DNA from: Pseudomonadota bacterium
GTDB lineage: Bacteria; Bdellovibrionota; FAC87; UBA2466
Assembly: GCA_009927165.1 (NCBI GenBank)
Contig: RFNO01000039.1
Span: forward strand, 1 to 35,471
DNA: 35,471 bases
Direction: 5' to 3'
Below, piece by piece: positions 23,826-35,338 of this stretch. Under the pieces are notes generated by a model, which did no database searches, was not told the origin of the DNA, and worked only from the letters and a program-made list of their open reading frames with translations. Both the position numbers and the translations under genes were made by a program. The number at the start of each line of letters is the position of its first letter. Position 1 is the first letter of the stretch.

Positions 23826-24947
23826 ATGTCAGTTTTTGCCACATCGGTTCAGGTTTTTCTAGGTCCAGTTCTCCCATACCTCAAAGATGACTCTGTTTCA
23901 GAAATCATGATCAACGGGCCTTCGCATATTTTTATCGAGCGTGCTGGCCATGTTGAACGCATTGATGCCAAATTTGATGATGAACAGGCCTTGATGGCTG
24001 CAGTGAGGAATATTTCTCAATTTGTTGGGAGACCCATTTCCGAAGAAACGCCTTTTCTGGATGCGCGACTTCCCGATGGTTCCCGAATACATGCAGTAGT
24101 GCCTCCAGTTGCTAAAAATGGAACAACAGTTTGTATTCGAAAATTCTCGAAAAAAAAATTGGAACTCAAGGACCTTATCGCGCGCTCCGCTTTAACAGCC
24201 GATGCAGCTCGGTTTTTAGATGTTTGTCTTTACTTGAAGAAAAACATCATTGTTTCTGGTGGAACCGGTTCTGGTAAAACCACCATGCTTAATATTTTGG
24301 CAAGTCGTTGCCAGCCGGAACAAAGAATTGTGGTGTTGGAGGACTCTTCGGAACTCCAAATACATAACCAACATGTTGTTTATTTCGAGGGCCGTCCAGC
24401 CAATGAGTATGGAAAAGGCACAGTTACCCTGAGGGATTTGGTGAAATCTTCCTTGAGACTTCGTCCTGACCGAGTGATTGTGGGCGAAGTTCGTGGTGGG
24501 GAAGCTCTGGATTTGATTAGCTCGATGAATACAGGACATTCGGGTTCAATGGGGACAGTACACTCCAATAATCCCAAAGAGTGCCTTACGCGTTTAGAGA
24601 CTCTTGCGCTAATGACCGATTCGGAAGTGCCTGTTCAGGCAGTTCGGGCTCAAGTGGCTTCGGCAATTCAAATCGTACTACAGCTGTCTCGCTTACAAGA
24701 CGGTTCCAGAAGGGTGACTCATATATCCGAATGTCTTGGCATGGATATTCATGGGAATTATCAAACATCTGATATCTATTTGTTTGAACAGTGGGGCAGG
24801 GACAAAGATGGAAAAATTCTTGGCGCCCTAAATCCAACCGGCATTATTCCGTCTTTCATGAGGGAGATCGAAGTAAATCAACTCCCGTTTCCAAAAGAAA
24901 TGTTCCAGAAAAAAAGCGTCCCAAGCGGGCAAACACAGGCTGCTTAA
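23826..24947 (+). CDS. cpaF: CpaF/TadA-type secretion ATPase
   Basis: This is a hexameric ATPase of the type II/IV secretion superfamily that powers Tad-type pilus assembly. The 373 residues begin almost at the core (SEIMINGPSHIFIE, about 25), so the variable N-terminal domain of longer CpaF proteins is missing. Walker A is GGTGSGKT (145-152). An Asp box DSSEL (173-177), a Walker B-like VIVGEVRGGEA (217-227) and the His box GHSGSMGTVHS (237-247) follow. No tadB, tadC, secretin or pilin gene is adjacent, so the ATPase acts with components encoded elsewhere, or has a different job. It overlaps plsB tail-to-tail by 4 bp. Confidence 0.92.
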   Translation: MSVFATSVQVFLGPVLPYLKDDSVSEIMINGPSHIFIERAGHVERIDAKFDDEQALMAAVRNISQFVGRPISEETPFLDARLPDGSRIHAVVPPVAKNGTTVCIRKFSKKKLELKDLIARSALTADAARFLDVCLYLKKNIIVSGGTGSGKTTMLNILASRCQPEQRIVVLEDSSELQIHNQHVVYFEGRPANEYGKGTVTLRDLVKSSLRLRPDRVIVGEVRGGEALDLISSMNTGHSGSMGTVHSNNPKECLTRLETLALMTDSEVPVQAVRAQVASAIQIVLQLSRLQDGSRRVTHISECLGMDIHGNYQTSDIYLFEQWGRDKDGKILGALNPTGIIPSFMREIEVNQLPFPKEMFQKKSVPSGQTQAA

Positions 24948-27511
24948 ACTAGGATATCAGCCACGCGCATCCTGAGAAGGCGATGAAACTCTATCAGTTC
25001 ATCCAAAGTGGTTTGCGCCTCCGTATTCCAATTCCTTATCTGCAACAGGTTCTTGTCTTTTTCTCTGGTTTGGGAAATCAAACCGAAGTTTTCCATTAAT
25101 TTGAAAGCATTGGTAAAATTTTGTGTCGAAATACATTCCGGCTTAAAAGAACCATTGGATTCCACTCGCAGGACTCCCTCCCGCACCGCTTTTTGAAGAA
25201 GACTCTTGCTTTCGTGGGAGCCTGCCCCTTCTGATTTCAAGACATCGAGTACTATCAGATAACTTTCGACAATATCTCGGGTTAGTCGAATAAATAACGA
25301 TGAGTCCTGAAGTTCAAAAAAACGTTTCTGCATTCCAGCTTGGAACCGATCCTTATCGATGAGATCCCCATCTTTTCCATCGCAAAGAAAAATGAGATTG
25401 TCCCGTATTTCTTTTACAAACTGTTGAGTGGGGCTAAAGAAAAATTCAAACTTGAAAAGGTTTCTTAAAGTGAGAGCTTGTTTGATTACTTCAGCTTCAA
25501 ATTCCGAGATAGCAGTCTTCTTATGAGCAAATGCCCGGCATACCGAGAGCAAAGTGATGCTAGGAATAATAAAACAATGGATTGAATTGTTTTTATAAAA
25601 TGTCAGATTGATACGTTTTCGTGGATCTAACGAATAGGTTACTGGAATTCCTGGTTGGACCAACAGTGAGGAGTCGGCTTGGAGTCGCTTGATGAAAGTC
25701 TCAATTGCGCGTTTAAACTCTAGCTCGGAATCTCCAGCACTCAGCTCGCTCTCTGCCCAGCTAGCATATTGAGCTAACGTGTCTGCGCTCCTTAAGATAT
25801 CCTCCAGTGAAAGAAAGGGCTTTTCATGGGAAAGAAAGATGCTAGATAAAATTGCTTTGGGTGTTATTGGAGTTGAATCATTGATGCATTTACAAATGTT
25901 GAAAGCCATTTTTTGCAACAGTAACGTGGGGTCTAATCCCTGATTGGTGCCCTCTTGGTATTCCTCTTTAATGGAAATGGAAGGAGCGAATCTTACGTAG
26001 ATTTTGCCAATATTCCGCTTGAACAGTTTCCTCGACTGAATGAGGCCCTTGGCAGACTCCTTTTCTTTCTGGGCACCCGCTAATTCCTTTCCATAAGTAC
26101 CTTCTTCCAGAACTTCGTCGTATGAAATAGAGATTGGAACCAAAGCGATATCATCAACCTGCTTGTCTTCGTAAGTCTGAGCCACCATTTTAAGAAGTCC
26201 GTAGGCCGGAGGTAGCATTTTCCCCGTACGGCTTCGAGTGCCTTCAATAAAAAACTTAATGTTGATGCGATTTTTGAGAAGCCATTCCACGTATTCCTGT
26301 AAGCAGACTGCATACAGCGGCTCGCCGCGAAAGGAGCGTCTGATAAAAAATGCCCCCCCCATGCGAAGAAAGGGTCCCACCGGCCAAAAGGATAAATTTA
26401 CTCCCGCTGCGATATGGGGTGTGACGATATCCTCAACAAAAAGCACTCTGGGTACTACTAGGTAATCCAGGTGACTCCGGTGACAGGAAACAAACACAAC
26501 AGCTTTTGTCTTCATTGTCTCACGAAGCTGTTGAATTTGGTTTGGGTCCACCACAATGTCTTCAAAAAGTTTCCCAAAAAGCCAAGTGAGTACCACGTAC
26601 ATCACTTCGACAAACCTAAACTTGTAGTTGGCAGCTATCTCGGTGAGATATTGATAAGCAAGTCCCATCACCTTTTTACGATCGAGATTTTTCTCTTTTG
26701 AAATCTGATCTACGGCTTTCAGTATTTCCGGGTCCTTCATTAAGCTCTCTTTAACTGAGTAGGGAGAGAAATACCTGGGACCAAGAACCACTCGCATTTC
26801 CTGATTTACTTCAACCAAAATTTTCCGACGCATCATTCTGGCCATTCGACTGGCATCCACGCCATCCAACTCATCGCTGGGTTCAGACAGGTCTTTAGTC
26901 CGCCATGAAATCGGCGCAAGTGAGCGAACTGTGCTGTCGGTTCGCTTTCTGGCCAGGTACCAAATTTTTCCAAAAAAGTTTGGTTTTGAGCTTAAGCCAA
27001 AAAAATATTCGGTAAGCTGTCGTGCTGCTCCTCGAACATGCTTTCTCCAGCAAATAAACAAGGGAACGAAGCAAAAAGAAACATGCTGGGAATCCTGCTG
27101 TTCGCGCAAATAAAGCTGGGCAATTAACTCTTCTGTTTCAGTGGGTGTAAAAAGCTGTTTCCTCTCTCCAGGAGGACAAAAAACAAGCCTTGGCCCTTCC
27201 TGAGAAGAAAGAAAAAGGTCAGAGTAGGTTCTCTTCCAAAAAACCACTTGCAGGAAATACAGCGGTTTTGCGAAGAGAAGTATTCGCTTTCGATTGGAAA
27301 TAAGAATTGCTCCCAATCCTTGCTTCCGGCTCCAACTTGAAAGAATCAGCCATTCGATGATTCCGCCGTCGGTAAGCGCGAAAACAAGGCGGCCTTGCTG
27401 GTTGGGTTCACGAATCAGATCAATGGGAATATCAAAACTAAACCTAACAAAAATGAGATTTGAGATGGCCTGCCAAACCTTATCAATCCATTCGTAAAGT
27501 TTATTTAACAT
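24944..27511 (-). CDS. plsB: glycerol-3-phosphate 1-O-acyltransferase
   Basis: PlsB puts the first acyl chain on sn-glycerol-3-phosphate at the inner membrane. The 855 residues are a little longer than E. coli PlsB (about 807). The four acyltransferase blocks are present: HRSHLDY with H344 and D349, GGAFFIRRSFRG (about 385-396), FIEGTRSRTGK (421-431) and ALVPISISYD. A membrane-associated N-terminal region and a long C-terminal helical part flank the core. There is no ribosome site; the start codon is 12 nt after the stop of the GYF_2 protein, so translation may depend on that gene. With PlsB plus the PlsC domain at 33.5-35.3 kb, both acylation steps are represented. Confidence 0.95.
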   Translation of the reverse strand: MLNKLYEWIDKVWQAISNLIFVRFSFDIPIDLIREPNQQGRLVFALTDGGIIEWLILSSWSRKQGLGAILISNRKRILLFAKPLYFLQVVFWKRTYSDLFLSSQEGPRLVFCPPGERKQLFTPTETEELIAQLYLREQQDSQHVSFCFVPLFICWRKHVRGAARQLTEYFFGLSSKPNFFGKIWYLARKRTDSTVRSLAPISWRTKDLSEPSDELDGVDASRMARMMRRKILVEVNQEMRVVLGPRYFSPYSVKESLMKDPEILKAVDQISKEKNLDRKKVMGLAYQYLTEIAANYKFRFVEVMYVVLTWLFGKLFEDIVVDPNQIQQLRETMKTKAVVFVSCHRSHLDYLVVPRVLFVEDIVTPHIAAGVNLSFWPVGPFLRMGGAFFIRRSFRGEPLYAVCLQEYVEWLLKNRINIKFFIEGTRSRTGKMLPPAYGLLKMVAQTYEDKQVDDIALVPISISYDEVLEEGTYGKELAGAQKEKESAKGLIQSRKLFKRNIGKIYVRFAPSISIKEEYQEGTNQGLDPTLLLQKMAFNICKCINDSTPITPKAILSSIFLSHEKPFLSLEDILRSADTLAQYASWAESELSAGDSELEFKRAIETFIKRLQADSSLLVQPGIPVTYSLDPRKRINLTFYKNNSIHCFIIPSITLLSVCRAFAHKKTAISEFEAEVIKQALTLRNLFKFEFFFSPTQQFVKEIRDNLIFLCDGKDGDLIDKDRFQAGMQKRFFELQDSSLFIRLTRDIVESYLIVLDVLKSEGAGSHESKSLLQKAVREGVLRVESNGSFKPECISTQNFTNAFKLMENFGLISQTREKDKNLLQIRNWNTEAQTTLDELIEFHRLLRMRVADILV

Positions 27512-27523
27512 CGACGCTCAAGA

Positions 27524-29005
27524 TTAAAAGTCTTTATTTTCCTTGCTTGGTGAGGAATTGATTGAGCTTGGCAACTCATGCAAGCTTTTGTCAGAAAATT
27601 GTGTTTGAAATTGAGTTTCCAGGTATTGCAACATTCTCGCGGGGCTCATGACAGATGCATTATATCTTTCTCTTGCTACTTGAGCATAGCGTTGTCTCTC
27701 TCGAGTCAAGTTTGTGTCGACGAGATTCCAATGATCGTCAATTAACCAAAATACGAAGTAAATATCTCGAATGCGATCATTGCTAAGAATCACATCTCCT
27801 TGGTAGTGAGCTACAATCCGGAAATCACCGGATGTGGTTTGTTTTACTTCCACCAAAGGTCTTGTCACTAATTTCAACTGAGGGAAGTCAGTTGAAATAT
27901 GCTTCATTACGGTTTCAACAAAATAAAAGGAAAGGCGATTAAAGATATTTTGGATCCTTTGCGGGGTAGGGAGCAAATAGTAGCCATACGGATGGTTAAG
28001 GGCTGGAAAAGTTTTTTCAAAAAGTCTGATACGCTCAGTTGCTAATTCATAGTTTTTCATTGAGTTGAGAAGCAATTGAATATCAGCCAGAAGAAAATCA
28101 GCACTTTCTTTACTTTGAGTTTGTTGAAAAGCGAGAAACAGTGATGTTTCAGCTTGAGGATAAAGGGAGGGTTCTTGGAGAAAAAAACGGGCAGCTTCTC
28201 CTGGTTTTTTTACTTTTAAAAGCAAATCTCCCGCTTTCTGGTATTGATGGTCCTGTCGGTAGTTATCGATGAGAGCTCGAAGCGCCTCAACGCCTACTTC
28301 ATCATTGGGGTTATGGGTAAGGAGGTCATTTAAAGCGATGATGGAAGGGGCTGGTTGAAGCAGTATTTCGCTAAGAGCTTTTGTCAGTTTTATTTTTCTT
28401 TCAGAAAGTACTTCCTCTTTAGTAGCTATTTTCGCAATCGGTTTGACAGCTTCGGGAGGTTTTCCCAAGAAAAGAAAAGCTAGGGAAATAAGCGAGAGAG
28501 CAACAAAAATCCCAACCATGAGAAGTGCGCGGCTCTTTATGGGGCCTTTTTTAACAATCTCAGTTACTGTTAATGGAGCACTATCGAATCGTCCCTCTTC
28601 TTTTGTAAATACCGGCTTTAAGTCAGAGCCCGGGATTGCAAAAGAAGCAAAGATGATATCTTCTTTGATGGGCGGTATTGCTTCCTCTGGCGCTGGAGAA
28701 GAATCTGGTGGAGGTATGTTTTCCATCTCAAATGAGCTGGGCGACAACTCACTAGAGCTGACTGGGGGCTGGGTTGTTAAAGGAGCATCTGACAGACCAG
28801 AGTGCTTACTTAAAAAACTTTGGAAGTCTTTGATGGATTCAATCGATTGCCAAGTAGCCTGGCCGTCCCACCAAATAAGGCTTTGAGTTGAAATTAAGCC
28901 TTTCTGAAGCTTGTCCGCGATATCCTGTCCAGAAAAAGGGCCTGATTGCTCTCCTTCTATGACCAGAAAATAGGATTGATTATCATTAGAATCCAGGAAG
29001 CTCAT
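27524..29005 (-). CDS. membrane protein with N-terminal GYF_2-like domain
   Basis: The 493-residue protein starts with a GYF_2 (DUF4339)-like domain (about residues 10-65: GEQSGPFSGQDIADKL and LIWWDGQATWQS). Next come a Pro/Ser-rich linker, one membrane helix (about 160-180, LLMVGIFVALSLISLAFLFLG) and a helical, TPR-like region (about 200-330). A C-terminal alpha/beta domain ends the protein. GYF_2 domains are thought to bind proline-rich peptides. The role here is unknown. It precedes plsB by 12 nt, suggesting an envelope or lipid link. It lacks a ribosome site, and a TG-TATACT element lies 7 nt before its ATG. Confidence 0.75.
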   Translation of the reverse strand: MSFLDSNDNQSYFLVIEGEQSGPFSGQDIADKLQKGLISTQSLIWWDGQATWQSIESIKDFQSFLSKHSGLSDAPLTTQPPVSSSELSPSSFEMENIPPPDSSPAPEEAIPPIKEDIIFASFAIPGSDLKPVFTKEEGRFDSAPLTVTEIVKKGPIKSRALLMVGIFVALSLISLAFLFLGKPPEAVKPIAKIATKEEVLSERKIKLTKALSEILLQPAPSIIALNDLLTHNPNDEVGVEALRALIDNYRQDHQYQKAGDLLLKVKKPGEAARFFLQEPSLYPQAETSLFLAFQQTQSKESADFLLADIQLLLNSMKNYELATERIRLFEKTFPALNHPYGYYLLPTPQRIQNIFNRLSFYFVETVMKHISTDFPQLKLVTRPLVEVKQTTSGDFRIVAHYQGDVILSNDRIRDIYFVFWLIDDHWNLVDTNLTRERQRYAQVARERYNASVMSPARMLQYLETQFQTQFSDKSLHELPSSINSSPSKENKDF

Positions 29006-29012
29006 TTATTTA

Positions 29013-29021
29013 AGTATATCA
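29013..29021 (-). promoter_or_regulatory. extended -10, likely leaderless promoter
   Basis: On the minus strand TGATATACT is an extended -10 (TATACT, 5 of 6) that ends 7 nt before the start codon at 29005. Transcription would begin at or next to the ATG, and no ribosome site is present. It would separate expression of the GYF_2/plsB pair from the upstream gene. Confidence 0.5.
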
Positions 29022-29028
29022 CTGAGCA

Positions 29029-30231
29029 TTAATCATTTGCCGAAAGTTCACGCCCAAAAACCCGCCGGCGCGCAGCGTCTAATTGCTTGCGTCGGTATTC
29101 CTCGTGGTTGCTTTTCCCAAACACACTGTCTGCGTAGGCTTTTACATCCATAACCTGAACTTCGTACGGAAAAAATCCAAAATCATGAGTGGGGGGAGTG
29201 CTAGGAAAAAGCTCCTGAAGTAATTGCGAACCTCCGGGAATACTCTCGAAATGCGACTGAATAGCTTGATAGATTTTATTTTGGGGATTAGGGACCCGAA
29301 CGAGCTCTCTGCAAGTGAATTGGATTGCTCGATAGTGTTCACTGGAATGAGGATTGAGTAAACTTCGTCCAAGTCTCTTTGTTCCAATTCGGCTTTCTAA
29401 ACGAGCGATCATTTTTTTTACGTAAGGTTGAGTCTCAGTTGTTTTCTTCAAGTGTGTTGAAATCCGTTCCAATTCAAATTTTAAGCGTTGAATATCAATT
29501 AACCGATTTCTGGATCTAGCCGGCCGAATATTCGGTAAACTAATGATGTTCTTTTCGATAAGAAGAGTGACGGCTCGAAGGGCTTCCAGTTTGGTTTCAG
29601 TAACGAGGCGAATCCCGACTCGGTCGTAAATTTCCTCAACTACGCTCTCGGCTTTGTGAAGTAGTTTGATCATTTCACGAGACTTATCTTTTCGCTCCTT
29701 CTTCTTGAAAAATAAAAGCTTGATACCTTCTTCCCCTTCTACTCCTCGTCCCAACGAAGTGACGCCAGTATTAGGATCCACGTGGAGACATTTATCCAGC
29801 CTAGCCAAAACCTGGGTCTGCATTTGCTGGAAAAATTTATGTCGGGGGTCATAGTAAAGGTGAATAAGACCGTGCATGATTCGTAAGATTGCACAGCAAA
29901 AACGTTGTTCTACACTTCCCAACTCACCGGAGGCCATCAACAGAAGCCTACGGATGTCTTTGACCGCATCTCGGCTTCGTAAATGCTCGGGAACCCGGGG
30001 ATACTCAGGATCCGTGAGGGTTTTTTCCAAAAACTGGACGGCTTCATCAAAGAAATCCCAAAGAATGGTGAGATCGCTCTTATTGGTGGGATCGAACCCA
30101 TAGGCTAGAACAAACGAAGTGGCTTCCTCCATGGTTCTCAGTTTTAGACGCGGCACATCAAGAACTGATGTGCCATCGAGCGGAACTTTTAAAGTTGACC
30201 ATGGAAAATCTAAATTTGGAATAGCCGTCAT
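29029..30231 (-). CDS. TIGR04552-like protein with RelA/SpoT-like landmarks
   Basis: From memory this 400-residue protein resembles the deltaproteobacterial family TIGR04552, function unknown. It has no membrane segment. Landmarks match a RelA/SpoT (RSH) synthetase domain in order: a basic helix KKKERKDKSREMIKLLHK (about 176-193) where RSH has the ATP-binding stretch; EEIYDRVGIRLVTET (about 199-213) where RSH has D-x-x-G-x-R; HYRAIQF (about 299) where RSH has GYxSLH; and YEVQVMD (356-362) where RSH has (I/E)EVQIRT; then HEEYR near 376. The catalytic-type Glu (E357) and the Asp (D203) are retained, but RT is replaced by MD. Nucleotide binding or alarmone chemistry is inference. The start has no ribosome site and sits in a 12-bp palindrome. 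Confidence 0.75.
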   Translation of the reverse strand: MTAIPNLDFPWSTLKVPLDGTSVLDVPRLKLRTMEEATSFVLAYGFDPTNKSDLTILWDFFDEAVQFLEKTLTDPEYPRVPEHLRSRDAVKDIRRLLLMASGELGSVEQRFCCAILRIMHGLIHLYYDPRHKFFQQMQTQVLARLDKCLHVDPNTGVTSLGRGVEGEEGIKLLFFKKKERKDKSREMIKLLHKAESVVEEIYDRVGIRLVTETKLEALRAVTLLIEKNIISLPNIRPARSRNRLIDIQRLKFELERISTHLKKTTETQPYVKKMIARLESRIGTKRLGRSLLNPHSSEHYRAIQFTCRELVRVPNPQNKIYQAIQSHFESIPGGSQLLQELFPSTPPTHDFGFFPYEVQVMDVKAYADSVFGKSNHEEYRRKQLDAARRRVFGRELSAND

Positions 30232-30236
30232 GACGG
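30225..30236. repeat. 12-bp perfect palindrome over a start codon
   Basis: CCGTCATGACGG is centred on the ATG of the TIGR04552-like gene. It could be an operator or occlude the start codon in RNA. No second copy was noticed in the window. Confidence 0.4.
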
Positions 30237-30240
30237 GGGA

Positions 30241-30269
30241 AAGATAACATAGGCTCCCCGTGACTCCAA
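30241..30269 (-). promoter_or_regulatory. possible leaderless promoter of the TIGR04552-like gene
   Basis: On the minus strand TTGGAG (30269-30264) and TATCTT (30246-30241) are 17 bp apart. The -10 ends 9 nt before the ATG, so the leader would be about 3 nt. The hexamers are weak (3 and 4 of 6), so this is less secure than the others. Confidence 0.3.
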
Positions 30270-30289
30270 ACAGGGAGCTCAGTTATAAG
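30260..30289 (+). promoter_or_regulatory. promoter of tRNA-Ser
   Basis: GTGACT (30260-30265) and TATAAG (30284-30289), 18 bp apart, would start transcription near 30296, about 9 nt before the mature tRNA. The element overlaps the divergent minus-strand promoter of the TIGR04552-like gene. Confidence 0.45.
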
Positions 30290-30304
30290 AGGGGGGTCAG
30301 TTCA

Positions 30305-30397
<93 letters not shown>

Positions 30398-30399
30398 TT

Positions 30400-31008
30400 T
30401 TAAATTCGTAGTGCCGTGACCGGCTTAAAACAGAAATAAAAGCAGAGTAAGGCTGCCATTTCTAGCAAGTGGTAAAGCGCATTGTGATCAAAGTAGTGAG
30501 GATCAATTCCGATCTTTCTTTGCTGAAAAATTGAAGCCACCAGAGTGGTCAGTCCCGCGATAACTCCCCACCGAGCTTGAGTGTTTGGATGCTTCCAATA
30601 GGATTTTGCGTTGGTAAAGATGAAAAGAGTTAGCGGAAGAAGATAAAAGATTACTGCCACCCAGAATCGGTGATCGATAAAAGATACATAGAAAATGAAA
30701 GCCAGCCAGAGGACCAATGAAATTTTTATAGAACCCGTTAAAAAATGCCAAAGACAGACTGCCGTTCCTCCGATACCGGCGAGAGTACAGATCCAAATCA
30801 AAAAACCGGACGCTGTAGAAGTTTTTAGTGGAAAAAAACCATGGTAAGTGCCACCCAAGAACGCCGAAATAGCAACGGATAAAAAAAATAAAAATGAAAA
30901 AAGCGCACCTTTGTTGTTTTTTGAAAGAACGGCAAAACAAAGGCATTCAGTGCCCACTAAATAATCAGTCAATACTACATCTAGGTCGAGAACAGTCACT
31001 TGAATCAA
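30400..31008 (-). CDS. multi-pass membrane protein, DUF6962-like
   Basis: The 202-residue protein has about six or seven membrane helices. The opening VLTDYLVGTECLCFAV resembles the TDYLL start I recall for DUF6962. A helix contains GGTYHGFF, and the last helix is preceded by HYFDHNALYHLLEM, giving an H-x3-H pattern plus a further His. These His positions recall the CREST hydrolase superfamily (ceramidase/PAQR type), but that is an impression. The start codon is TTG within TTGA, overlapping the stop of the GDPD gene by 4 nt. It is the last gene of a three-gene operon. Confidence 0.75.
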   Translation of the reverse strand: MIQVTVLDLDVVLTDYLVGTECLCFAVLSKNNKGALFSFLFFLSVAISAFLGGTYHGFFPLKTSTASGFLIWICTLAGIGGTAVCLWHFLTGSIKISLVLWLAFIFYVSFIDHRFWVAVIFYLLPLTLFIFTNAKSYWKHPNTQARWGVIAGLTTLVASIFQQRKIGIDPHYFDHNALYHLLEMAALLCFYFCFKPVTALRI

Positions 31009-31910
31009 GATTCCTTATTGAGTTTATCTGCAAGCAGAGGTTCATCCGTGATTACGCCGAAAGGTTTTCTCTTCAAACAGTTTTTGATTTCGGCTTCACT
31101 TTCAGGAGTCCAAAGAAAAATGGGATAGCCTAACTGTTGTAAATGGGTGATCGTTTCTGTTGCTACTTCGTGATTCACACTTAACAAATCCGGCTTTATG
31201 AATTTTCGAATGGCCCGACGAAAGGTTTCGTTTCGAAGAAAGAAGGGCAAAGTAACTAAATCCCCGGCTTTGATTTCTTTAAGAAGTGCCGGATTCCAAT
31301 TAGTGTCCATAAAAATAAAAACAGTTCTGATTTGAGGGTCGAGGCGCTTTAAACGATAGAGAACGAGTGGATTAAATGATGAAAAGAAAACTTGTTCATG
31401 GGCCTTATATTTTTGGACTAAAGCGACTGCTTTCTCTTCCATTCCCGTCGATGCAGCCCCAGGCACTTTTAGTTCGATCATAAGGATCCCTTTCCCTTGG
31501 GTTAAGTGAAGTGCCTCTTCAAAGGTTCCCGGGAAGCTATTCCTGAACCCCTTGCCAAATTTTTCAGCCAAATCGAGTTGCTTTAACTCCGCTAGCGTTT
31601 TTTCTTTCACTCGACCTGTTCCATTGGTAAGTCGGTCCACACTGAGATCGTGAAAAATGACTAATTCCCCGTCTTTGGTCTGCTGGCCGTCCATATCCAC
31701 TCCGGCCATTTTGGCTTCCATGGCAAGGCGTATCCCATCCATGCTGTTGTCGGGTGCACCATTACCAAAACCCCGATGGGAAAAAATCAGTGTCGGATCA
31801 CTATGGGAACCAGAAATCAAACCTCGATACGGAGGATCATAGAAGAAAAGATAGCCACCAATAACAAAAATCAGAGCGAGCATTACTAAAAGCCAATTGC
31901 GTAGTTTCAT
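31005..31910 (-). CDS. membrane-anchored glycerophosphodiester phosphodiesterase
   Basis: It hydrolyses glycerophosphodiesters from deacylated phospholipids to glycerol-3-phosphate and an alcohol. The 301 residues begin with a membrane anchor (about 6-24). The GDPD core contains H45-R46 in FSHRGFG, TKDGELVIFHD with H87, and MIELK with E146. The usual E-x-D metal pair is atypical: the segment reads AGVDMDGQQTKDG, so D72-M-D74 stands where most members have Glu-x-Asp and the loop is about three residues shorter. Activity is therefore likely but not certain. ATGA joins it to the upstream oxidase gene. It may recycle head groups for the acyltransferases nearby. Confidence 0.88.
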   Translation of the reverse strand: MKLRNWLLVMLALIFVIGGYLFFYDPPYRGLISGSHSDPTLIFSHRGFGNGAPDNSMDGIRLAMEAKMAGVDMDGQQTKDGELVIFHDLSVDRLTNGTGRVKEKTLAELKQLDLAEKFGKGFRNSFPGTFEEALHLTQGKGILMIELKVPGAASTGMEEKAVALVQKYKAHEQVFFSSFNPLVLYRLKRLDPQIRTVFIFMDTNWNPALLKEIKAGDLVTLPFFLRNETFRRAIRKFIKPDLLSVNHEVATETITHLQQLGYPIFLWTPESEAEIKNCLKRKPFGVITDEPLLADKLNKES

Positions 31911-33388
31911 GGTTGGGCCACTTCTTTGTAGTGTTCATAAAAAAGACTTGTGAATGTTTCTTTAGGGTCCCACTTGAGTTTTGCTCGAAAAACAGCAGAT
32001 GCTCTCGGGTACGCTCGACTCAATTGCTGTACAGTGGGATAAAGTTGATACGTGAGATAGTAAGATCCTTCATATTTGATCGCCGAATCCACTAATTTCT
32101 GTGTGGTGAGGCGTGCTTTTTCCTGTTCTGAATCGGAAAGACCGACATTACTCATTTGAATAATAGCAAAGCAATTCTCTTTGGGACAATAAGCAAGGTC
32201 CACTTCATCGTTTGCTTTTACGTATCGAATAGTAGAACTGATGACATTCATCCCACTCCCCAAAAGAATCTGCCGAAATTCCTCCATAAAAGGTACAAAG
32301 TGTCTGGTGGGAACATAATATTCTTGAATAATGTCCGTTTGTTTTTCCGAAAAATAATCCAGAAATTTAAGGGGAGTGGCAGGGGGGCGCATTGCGTTGT
32401 TTCTGGAAGTGATAACTGTTTTTCCTGGGCTAGACTCGAACCCTTTTTGCAGTTTCCATCTCAAGTTTTTTCCCCACTGAAATGTCCTTGAGAGATTAAA
32501 AAGGAATCGATCACGGGAAACATGCTCTTCTTGTCCCAACGGGATGACTTCCGCTGGAACACCTGCGTGCTTGTTCCATTGGGTCAATACAATTTCTTGC
32601 ATAAAAGTGTCACTGGCAATGGAAGGGCGTGCTAACAGGAGCGAGACGTTAGGGTTTTTCTTGATATAGCTTTCAAATTCCGTGGGGAAGTCCCGATAAT
32701 CGACAATCTTTGCAGTTCTTTCCAGTACATCGTTGTCAGTTACTTCCAAAGTGACGTCTACGATGACTCCAAATAAGCCATAGCCCCCAACAACCAGCCG
32801 AAATAGTTCAGGTTGGCTTTGGCGACTGACATCGAGAATATCCCCTTTGGCAGTCAGGAATCGAAAGGACCGAACTGTTTCAACTATAGAAGTTTTTTCC
32901 AAATCTCGCCCATGCGCATTGGCACTTAAAGTACCCCCCACAGTAAAAATATATGACGACTGCATGACCTTGATCGCAAGTCCCAAAGGGTTGAGAGCTT
33001 GTTGAATCTCGTCCCACGTGGCCCCACTCTCTACACGAATAGTTTTGTTTTTGGGATTAATTTCCAGAATCCGATTAAACGATCTCATGGCCAGCACGAT
33101 GCTGCCCTTTGAGTAGACCTGGCCGCCTTGGCTGTGACGGCTCCCGGCAATTGAAATTTTCTTTCCGGACTTATTTGCTTCCCGTACGATTTGTTGGAGT
33201 TGTTCCGTGCTGGTTACACTTACCACTTGCTCGACAATCTGGGGATTTAGTCGAGAGACGTCAGTGAAAAAGTTATTTGTTCCATGATTCGAAAGGCTCT
33301 TTGGCGGAAGTGCGAAGGAGCCAATAAAAATAATTGATCCCAGGAAGAGGAAGAGGCTGGTTAGAAGGAGCAGCTTTTTAATTTGCAT
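31907..33388 (-). CDS. FAD-linked oxidase (PCMH / aldonolactone-oxidase type)
   Basis: The 493-residue protein has an N-terminal membrane helix (about 5-25) and an FAD-binding PCMH domain (about 55-230). This domain contains KKISIAGSRHSQGGQ, whose His is where aldonolactone oxidases bind FAD covalently, VESGATWDEIQQAL, GGTLSANAHGRD and GGYGLFGVIVDV. The C-terminal half resembles a sugar-acid or lactone oxidase cap only loosely. Substrate is unknown. It heads an operon with GDPD and the membrane protein, each overlapping by 4 nt. There is no ribosome site; a TG-AATAAT element lies 8 nt before the ATG. Confidence 0.87.
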   Translation of the reverse strand: MQIKKLLLLTSLFLFLGSIIFIGSFALPPKSLSNHGTNNFFTDVSRLNPQIVEQVVSVTSTEQLQQIVREANKSGKKISIAGSRHSQGGQVYSKGSIVLAMRSFNRILEINPKNKTIRVESGATWDEIQQALNPLGLAIKVMQSSYIFTVGGTLSANAHGRDLEKTSIVETVRSFRFLTAKGDILDVSRQSQPELFRLVVGGYGLFGVIVDVTLEVTDNDVLERTAKIVDYRDFPTEFESYIKKNPNVSLLLARPSIASDTFMQEIVLTQWNKHAGVPAEVIPLGQEEHVSRDRFLFNLSRTFQWGKNLRWKLQKGFESSPGKTVITSRNNAMRPPATPLKFLDYFSEKQTDIIQEYYVPTRHFVPFMEEFRQILLGSGMNVISSTIRYVKANDEVDLAYCPKENCFAIIQMSNVGLSDSEQEKARLTTQKLVDSAIKYEGSYYLTYQLYPTVQQLSRAYPRASAVFRAKLKWDPKETFTSLFYEHYKEVAQP

Positions 33389-33396
33389 AAGGGATG

Positions 33397-33405
33397 ATTA
33401 TTTCA
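33397..33405 (-). promoter_or_regulatory. extended -10, likely leaderless promoter of the FAD-oxidase operon
   Basis: On the minus strand TGAAATAAT is an extended -10 (AATAAT, 5 of 6) that ends 8 nt before the start codon at 33388. No ribosome site is visible. Confidence 0.45.
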
Positions 33406-33434
33406 CGAACAAAAAGACTGGAAAATCAAAATGT

Positions 33435-33464
33435 TTGTGACAAAAAGCAGCACTGAAATATAAA
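33435..33464 (+). promoter_or_regulatory. likely leaderless promoter of the MFS-PlsC gene
   Basis: TTGTGA (33435-33440) and TATAAA (33459-33464) are 18 bp apart. The -10 ends 8 nt before the ATG at 33473, placing the transcript start within 2 nt of the start codon. No ribosome site is present. Confidence 0.5.
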
Positions 33465-33472
33465 GTTATCCT

Positions 33473-35338
33473 ATGAGCCAAATCAAACTTCTCAAACAAA
33501 AAACATTCTTTCCGCTATTCCTTACTCAGTTTTGTGGTGCTTTTAACGATAATTTTTTAAAAAATGCGTTTGTTATCCTAGTTACTTTTCACGGCCTTAA
33601 AGTGGCAGGGCTTCCTGAAGGGGTAATGGTTGCCGTTATTGGAGGCTGTTTTATTTTGCCCTTCTTCCTGTTTTCTGCTCAAGCAGGTATTCTTGCAGAC
33701 CGTTGGGATAAGACCCGAGTCATTCGCTATGTAAAAGTCGCTGAAGTAGGGATTATGGGCGTAGCAGGGGCGGGATTGTTGACCCAATCCACTCTCCTTC
33801 TTTTGAGTTCTGTTTTTTTAATGGGAATTCACTCCACTGTTTTTGGACCGGTAAAGTTTAGTATTTTGCCCCAACATCTCAATGAAGACGAAATTGTCGG
33901 TGGTAATGCTTTGATCGAAGCGGGTACTTTTTTGGCAGTTCTCTTGGGAACTATCATGGGCGGAGTGATGATTGAACTCACCGATGGAGCCTTATGGGTT
34001 ACCCTTGGATTGATTCTCGTTTCTGTTTTGGGATTGATATCAAGTTTTCAAATTCCCTCGGCACCCCCTTCGGGTTCCGGAATACCCATGACTTGGAACC
34101 CAGTTTCTCCGACCTGGGAAATATTGAAAAGCACTCGAAAAGTTCCCTCAGTTTTTAATTCTTTAATGGGACTCTCGTGGTTTTGGTTTTTAGGCGCAGC
34201 TTTTTTGACGTTGTTTCCCACCTACGCAAAAGAAACCCTCCATCAGGAACAGGGGGTTGTGACTCTGTTTTTATGCATATTTTCTATTGGAATCGCTGTG
34301 GGGTCACTTTTGTGCGAAAGGCTTTCCCGGCATCATCTTGAATTGGGCCTTGTTCCTTTCGGTTCAATTGGAATGAGTGTTTTCTGTGCCGATCTTTATT
34401 TTGCCGGAGGAGTTGATCCTTCGATGGGAGTTTCGGCTGGTGTTTGGGGTTTTATTCAATCCCCATTGGGCCTAAGAATAGGTCTCGACTTATTTGCATT
34501 TTCGGTTTTTGCAGGGTTCTTTGCAGTACCTTTAAATACTTTGATACAAATTCGGTCGGCCCCCAACGAGCGGTCAAGAGTAATTGCTGCAAATAATATC
34601 ATCAATGCTTTATTCATGGTTTTAGCTGCTATATTTCTGGCGATTTGTGCCAAAGAAAACCTTTCGATACCAGTTATCTTTCTGAGCTTATCTCTGATGA
34701 ACATTGTGGTTGCTGTTTATATTTATCTTCTCATCCCCGAATTTTTGCTCCGCTTTATTGTTTGGGGACTCGCCAACATTGTTTATCGCTTGAAAATAAC
34801 CGGGAGAGAACACATTCCCAAAGAAGGTGCAGCGGTTCTGGTTTGCAACCATGTTTCTTTCGTTGACTGGATGATTGTAGCAGCTGCGATTAAACGGCCT
34901 GTCCGTTTTGTCATGGACCATCATTTTATGAAAGGATTTCTGATAAAGAGATTGATGACTCGAGCAAAAGTCATCCCCATTGCTCCAGGTTGGGAGAATC
35001 CCAGTGTTTTAGAGGAAGCTTTTAAAAGCATTGCCATGGAATTGGCTCAGGGTGAAATCATTTGTATTTTTCCTGAGGGAAAAATCACTAAAGATGGCAC
35101 CATGAATCCCTTTAAACCCGGCATTGAACGGATAGTTCGGGAAACTCCGGTTCCCGTTATTCCCATGGCGATTTTAAATATGTGGGGGAGTTTCTTTAGT
35201 CGGGAAGGGGGTAAGGCGGTTTTCAAAGTACCCAAACGCTTTAGGTCTCGTGTGGGACTTGTTATTGAGAAACCCATTGCTCCAGAGTCGGTCACCGCTC
35301 AAGGATTGTTCGATAAAGTTAAAGCCTTGCAAGCCTGA
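33473..35338 (+). CDS. LplT-like MFS transporter fused to PlsC acyltransferase
   Basis: The 621-residue protein has an N-terminal MFS half (about 1-420, twelve predicted helices, opening FLTQFCGAFNDNFLKNAF as in lysophospholipid transporter LplT). The C-terminal acyltransferase (about 435-621) carries NHVSFVDW (H460, D465), FPEGKITKDG (E535) and VPVIPMAIL. The usual third domain, an acyl-ACP/CoA synthetase of Aas-type fusions, is absent. The stop codon is followed by 133 bp with no continuing frame. The protein would flip and re-acylate lysophospholipids at the inner membrane, or serve as the PlsC that follows PlsB. It is divergent from the FAD-oxidase operon by 84 bp. Confidence 0.9.
   Translation: MSQIKLLKQKTFFPLFLTQFCGAFNDNFLKNAFVILVTFHGLKVAGLPEGVMVAVIGGCFILPFFLFSAQAGILADRWDKTRVIRYVKVAEVGIMGVAGAGLLTQSTLLLLSSVFLMGIHSTVFGPVKFSILPQHLNEDEIVGGNALIEAGTFLAVLLGTIMGGVMIELTDGALWVTLGLILVSVLGLISSFQIPSAPPSGSGIPMTWNPVSPTWEILKSTRKVPSVFNSLMGLSWFWFLGAAFLTLFPTYAKETLHQEQGVVTLFLCIFSIGIAVGSLLCERLSRHHLELGLVPFGSIGMSVFCADLYFAGGVDPSMGVSAGVWGFIQSPLGLRIGLDLFAFSVFAGFFAVPLNTLIQIRSAPNERSRVIAANNIINALFMVLAAIFLAICAKENLSIPVIFLSLSLMNIVVAVYIYLLIPEFLLRFIVWGLANIVYRLKITGREHIPKEGAAVLVCNHVSFVDWMIVAAAIKRPVRFVMDHHFMKGFLIKRLMTRAKVIPIAPGWENPSVLEEAFKSIAMELAQGEIICIFPEGKITKDGTMNPFKPGIERIVRETPVPVIPMAILNMWGSFFSREGGKAVFKVPKRFRSRVGLVIEKPIAPESVTAQGLFDKVKALQA

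Follow-up and report, generated by a model that had tools for sequence, protein, structure and literature searches.

The reverse strand of the window (the whole 35,471-nucleotide stretch of Bdellovibrionota DNA that was analysed) carries at 29029-30231 a gene whose product had been set down as a protein of unknown function with altered RelA/SpoT-like (RSH) synthetase motifs. Is this protein a homolog of the RSH synthetases, and if so, what might it make?

Family membership of the gene

The open reading frame at 29029-30231 encodes 400 amino acids, with its ATG at 30231 and its stop at 29029. It is a real gene, and its homologs are uninterrupted. The protein is a full member of the NCBIfam family TIGR04552/TIGR04562 (E 4e-95). 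It matches TIGR04562 with 319 bits over positions 1-356 of the 356-position profile (curated cut-off 140), and TIGR04552 with 312.7 bits over positions 2-351 of 352 (curated cut-off 125). The family is named but uncharacterised, and its model is without a function. In a literature search of incomplete coverage we found no mention of TIGR04562 and no report that treats small alarmone synthetases and Bdellovibrio together; recognition elsewhere is possible. A 'bdRel' subgroup from beta/delta-proteobacteria was listed by Atkinson in 2011 (PMC3153485). When scanned alone against Pfam, the window protein matched no family, including RSH, and carries no Pfam HD hydrolase, TGS, or ACT domain.

Resemblance to RSH synthetases

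The relatives of the protein are more informative. Scanned singly, 53 of 63 matched PF04607 (RelA_SpoT) at E<=0.1, the best at 3.7e-9, while any other Pfam family was matched by two relatives at most. One relative matched TIGR00691 (spoT_relA) at 2e-4. Moreover, a blind, phylum-wide RelA_SpoT search recovered family members from genomes G042 (28.1 bits) and G035 (27.1 bits) above the curated cut-off of 27, and others from G034 and G053 just under it. The family profile built from a broader alignment (A2) found RelSeq, YwaC (RelP), mycobacterial Rel, and RelA as its best matches among PDB sequences (E 0.005-0.5); the narrower alignment (A1) gave weak unrelated matches only. A six-frame search of 39 whole genomes with the profile gave 17 matches outside the family, of which 15 fell within canonical rel, either in the E-x-Q tail or in the D-x-x-G-x-R stretch, with the window's own genome included. 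These are single weak scores (E 0.4-10) from partly related genomes in which the same gene recurs, and rel was placed through the RelA_SpoT search loci or else by the length of the open frame and the place of the match in it. A profile of Bdellovibrionota Rel scored at least 10 bits in 8 of 62 real family sequences, as against none of 1,200 reported shuffles and none of 42 reversed sequences. Alignment of the family to 24 Bdellovibrionota Rel synthetase domains with hhalign gave probabilities of 22-39% (P 0.0003-0.001) and was confident in the EVQ tail only, a weak result that we attribute to the shallowness of the Rel alignment (Neff 2.8).

An AlphaFold2 model from 63 aligned sequences has a mean pLDDT of 90.5 and a pTM of 0.85. 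In a Foldseek search of the PDB, matches 1 to 48 are all RSH synthetase chains, ahead of the first unrelated protein. The top match is Staphylococcus aureus RelP (E 3e-3, probability 1.00), and RelQ, RelSeq, Rel, and CapRel are also among the 48. None of the E-values reaches 0.001, in keeping with a match to only half of the query, and the TM-scores, at about 0.5 against SAS chains, are modest. RelA/SpoT and Tas1 entries are also near the top in a viral structure library.

On this evidence, the protein is almost certainly a homolog with the RSH synthetase fold. The first-pass annotation would have given up its reading had no nucleotidyltransferase-type RSH fold emerged; such a fold is indicated by the predicted structure and by three independent profile tests. 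The silence of Pfam on the window protein itself, and the modest size of every single E-value to an RSH profile, might suggest chance or convergent motifs in an unrelated fold. That explanation is extremely improbable and already contradicted by the predicted fold, the 48 consecutive RSH chains, and the genome-wide ranking. Chance likeness of the motifs is ruled out by the landmarks conserved in the 63 relatives, the PF04607 matches, and the shuffled controls.

Candidate active site and possible product

The gene and the features that we recognise in its product are as follows.

29029..30231, minus strand: whole gene, 400 aa, TIGR04562/TIGR04552 family (319 and 313 bits; cut-offs 140 and 125)
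29734..30231, minus strand: N-terminal helical domain, residues 1-166, with invariant S22, Y44, G45, H120, and H124; no known fold found and no HD motif
29653..29700, minus strand: basic stretch K178-K193; K181 and K189 correspond to S. aureus RelP (SaRelP) Lys80 and Lys88, and residue 185 to Ser84
29608..29625, minus strand: D203-R-V-G206-I-R208 (YDRVGIR), the putative Mg2+ Asp and an Arg, corresponding to SaRelP Asp107 and Arg112
29506..29523, minus strand: P237-A-R239-S-R-N242 strand motif, proposed counterpart of RSH P-G-R-F-K-D from the model (strand 235-242), conservation, and PGRSRN in Eremiobacterota paralogs
29356..29505, minus strand: insert 1, residues 243-292, two helices predicted by the model; reduced in some Eremiobacterota paralogs
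29308..29355, minus strand: N293-R308, remodelled G-loop and next strand; Y300 corresponds to SaRelP Tyr151, and Q304 lies at the RSH His position
29176..29307, minus strand: insert 2, residues 309-352, two helices predicted by the model; far shorter in a few members
29092..29175, minus strand: residues 353-380, P-Y-E357-V-Q-V-M-D...G372...H376..Y379-R; E357 corresponds to the Mg2+/catalytic Glu174 of SaRelP, and the tail is in long-RSH register

The N-terminal domain, when modelled alone (pLDDT 83), has no PDB match. An HD hydrolase origin for it is unsupported, as it has neither an HD motif nor an HD-like match in the PDB.

Conservation was compared in 63 family sequences, with a mean column identity of 35%. 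Residues were paired with those of SaRelP by profile alignments and spacing, and in the middle region by motif, strand order, and spacing. In SaRelP, the ATP phosphates are held by Lys80, Ser84, Lys88, and Arg91, the adenine is stacked by Arg78 and Arg112, Mg2+ is held by Asp107 and Glu174, and guanosine is bound and stacked by Tyr151 (PMC5794853). K181, K189, D203, E357, and Q359 are present in all 63 sequences. The Asp and Glu among them were thought at first reading to occupy the metal and catalytic positions, and their invariance and pairing bear this out. Residue 185 is Ser in 51 sequences and Arg in 12, including the branch of the window protein, and H192, at the Arg91 position, is kept in 59 of 63. 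Residue 179, which pairs with the adenine-stacking Arg78, is variable (E, P, A, S, and D all occur). R208 is Arg in 57 sequences and Lys in five, and at Y300 there is Tyr in 57 sequences and Phe in the other six.

The acceptor side has diverged further. RSH P-K-x-N-G-Y-x-S-L-H becomes N-P-H-S-S-x-x-Y-R-[A/S]-I-Q in the family; the PKxNGY G-loop motif is gone, and the His of YxSLH is replaced by Gln in 60 of 63 sequences. The Arg and Thr of RSH EVQIRT have become M/L/V and Asp. Beyond E357, a Gly at +15, a His at +19, a Tyr at +22, and a Lys or Arg at +23 reproduce the long-RSH spacing exactly.

The RSH-like landmarks first noticed in the window protein, K178-K193, D203-R208, Y300-T306 (YRAIQFT), and E357-D362 (EVQVMD), thus hold up, occurring in RSH order and nearly all conserved across the relatives. 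The proposed tail stands in part: H-x-x-Y-R is sound (H376 and Y379), but the Ala-Asp is not, as A367-D368 lies two residues out of the RSH Ala-Glu register and is not conserved. An insertion between the second and third landmarks had been put at about 60 residues; it is about 50, with 97 residues from D203 to Y300 versus 44 from Asp107 to Tyr151 in SaRelP. The first-pass annotation lacked both the second insert, of about 34 residues (57 from Y300 to E357 versus 23 in SaRelP), and the P237-x-R239-S-[R]-N242 landmark. In Eremiobacterota paralogs the first insert is much shorter and the motif reads P-G-R-S-R-N, so that its likeness to RSH P-G-R-F-K-D is easier to see. In the TIGR04562 paralogs L155, L156, L157, and L158 (genomes G374 and G370), which occur in several copies in one genome, insert 1 is largely missing and Phe stands for Y300.

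Judged by these residues, the protein retains the putative metal and triphosphate side and lacks the adenine-stacking Arg78, and its acceptor (G-loop) region is remodelled, with two inserts around it. Our best explanation, to which we give a probability of roughly 0.6, is a divergent cytoplasmic enzyme of the RelA/SpoT superfamily that would bind ATP-Mg2+ and move pyrophosphate to the 3'-OH of a purine nucleotide, yielding an alarmone. ATP-Mg2+ would be bound through K181, K189, R208, D203, and E357. The beta,gamma-pyrophosphate of ATP would then pass to this 3'-OH, with the purine nucleotide stacked on Y300, and the resulting alarmone would be of (p)ppGpp or (p)ppApp type. Both inserts, together with the helical N-terminal domain, may form or control the acceptor site. 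An active ATP-dependent 3'-pyrophosphotransferase is thus the most likely reading, with an alarmone as the most likely product and tRNA or another acceptor as possible alternatives. Taken on its own, catalytic activity as a pyrophosphotransferase seems likely, while a purine alarmone as the product would be about an even bet. The protein probably works like a (p)ppGpp synthetase. We do not class it as one, because the adenine-stacking Arg (SaRelP Arg78) and the K-x-N-G-Y G-loop with YxSLH are missing; the Tyr is retained (Phe in six).

In Bdellovibrio sp. NC01, a 1-nt deletion in a 'TIGR04552 family protein' exceeded 75% in one evolved line; the experiment had six lines, and each gained starvation survival (PMC9888234). 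This suggests that the gene is dispensable in this strain and that its loss may be favoured, although it concerns one line and hitchhiking is possible. Such seeming dispensability, the lost adenine-stacking Arg, and the altered YxSLH and EVQIRT motifs would suit a nucleotide-binding protein that descends from an RSH synthetase and is catalytically dead or regulatory. We consider this quite unlikely, since strict invariance of the two metal ligands and the two phosphate lysines, in a family of such low overall identity, is unusual in a pseudoenzyme; these invariant, presumably catalytic residues favour an active enzyme.

Distribution, gene neighbourhood, and comparison with known systems

The TIGR04552/TIGR04562 gene is present in 318 of 369 genomes of the phylum and in 219 of the 235 good-quality ones, nearly always in one copy, and is normally chromosomal; a plasmid search found no copy. 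In addition, we identified it in 17 of 98 sampled Eremiobacterota genomes, with up to three copies, and in contigs titled Myxococcales, Sericytochromatia, and Armatimonadetes. The window's genome also encodes a separate, complete Rel with HD, synthetase, TGS, AH/RIS, and ACT domains. Two genomes, G014 (listed as 95% complete) and G373, have the gene and no RelA_SpoT match, where either missing contigs or a true absence of Rel is possible. A full-length homolog with 32% identity lies at MW495066.1:123525-124625, in a record titled 'Microcystis phage MaAM05'. This is the sole phage record matched and reflects either phage carriage or a misassigned contig.

Two genes follow in the window.

27524..29005, minus strand: GYF_2-domain protein with a hydrophobic (TM-like) stretch, beginning 23 bp past the stop; a neighbour conserved in the window's family of genomes
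24944..27511, minus strand: PlsB-type glycerol-3-phosphate acyltransferase, third gene of a probable operon

The order TIGR04552, GYF_2 protein, PlsB is that of the window's family of genomes. In many other genomes, the TIGR04552 gene overlaps a flavoprotein-like gene, which is followed by an iron-sulphur oxidoreductase, and PgpA lies upstream on the opposite strand. The overlapping gene of many Bdellovibrionota (L060:7187-8476) is without a Pfam match and starts like a nucleotide-binding flavoprotein; the next conserved operon partner (L060:8476-10401) encodes an Fe-S protein (Fer4, Fer2_4, Fer2_BFD). PlsB is a known target of inhibition by ppGpp in E. coli. The PlsB and PgpA neighbourhoods are in this light suggestive at most. 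Phospholipid genes are clustered at 24944-35338 of the window, where PlsB is joined by a GDPD-type phosphodiesterase and an MFS-acyltransferase fusion resembling acyl-ACP-phospholipid acyltransferase.

No small antitoxin-like partner is conserved beside the gene among open reading frames of at least 90 aa, and contexts vary among relatives. PADLOC and PHROGs searches gave no match for the protein. A toxin-antitoxin or defence reading was dropped, there being no partner, no mobility, and no defence-model match. These results also bear on an active 3'-pyrophosphotransferase whose acceptor would be an RNA 3' end, as for FaRel2 and CapRel on tRNA CCA, or another metabolite, and which would serve in housekeeping modification and not as a toxin. 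The kept ATP side, the remodelled acceptor side with its inserts and extra basic residues (K193, R239, R241, and R308), and the presence of CapRel among the structural matches are consistent with such an enzyme, and toxSAS chemistry on tRNA is established (PMC11559606). However, no structural match prefers CapRel to RelP, toxSAS are mostly smaller and patchy in distribution whereas this is a phylum core gene, and neither a partner of at least 90 aa, nor a plasmid copy, nor a PADLOC or PHROG match was found. We consider an RNA or metabolite acceptor doubtful.

Other RelA_SpoT proteins were encountered. Genome G032, of the same phylum, encodes a 453-aa protein (L141:749-2110, minus strand; 32 bits) that begins much like a signal peptide and contains a long insert; it may be an exported alarmone synthetase like those in PMC12691689. 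L148:733-1890, L149:98-1237 (47 bits), and L150:739-1905, from genome G374, encode proteins of 380-390 aa, several to a genome, whose N-termini are rich in Pro. L151:305-1324 (20.5 bits, E 6e-4) and L152:695-1717 represent a very divergent RelA_SpoT-like group of 340 aa with E-V-Q-V-Q, and with G-W-[QK]-A-M-K at the position of RSH G-Y-x-S-L-H.

What is new here is the link of the TIGR04552 family to RSH and the remodelled acceptor site; the kind of system is itself already known. A family known by model number only is now tied to the stringent-response enzymes. If the protein is active, a second pyrophosphotransferase would be a core gene of Bdellovibrionota, which bears on starvation handling and growth control in predatory bacteria. 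The Bdellovibrio frameshift sweep (PMC9888234), the one published trace that we found, can now be interpreted and put to the test. With the acceptor site altered, there is a chance of a new nucleotide or RNA product. More tentatively, and with less than even expectation, this near-universal second RSH-fold enzyme, with its remodelled acceptor site and novel N-terminal domain, may make something non-canonical, either a new alarmone or an RNA or metabolite pyrophosphorylated at the 3' position. A largely predatory phylum would then possess, alongside ordinary Rel, a nucleotide-signalling or RNA-modification pathway of its own.

Among known systems, the protein does not differ from the NCBIfam family TIGR04552/TIGR04562, both scores being well past the cut-offs. 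It shares the fold with toxSAS/CapRel (tRNA CCA pyrophosphokinases), Tas1, and the exported alarmone synthetases, which likewise have a remodelled acceptor side; unlike these, its gene is near-universal in the phylum, and no antitoxin-like partner of at least 90 aa, plasmid copy, or defence-model match was found for it. With the long RSH (Rel, RelA, SpoT) it has in common D-x-x-G-x-R, the P-x-R-x-[R/K]-[N/D] strand, and the register of the E-x-Q...G...H..Y[K/R] tail, but not the HD, TGS, and ACT domains, and a complete Rel is encoded separately in the genome. RelP/SAS2 and RelQ/SAS1 differ from it in length (about 200 aa versus about 400 aa with the N-terminal helical domain and two inserts), in possessing the adenine-stacking Arg and the PKxNGY G-loop, and in their patchy distribution. 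Nevertheless, these are its top structural matches, and they share with it the K, S, K and D-to-R spacing, the Mg2+ Asp/Glu pair, and the position of the guanosine-stacking Tyr.
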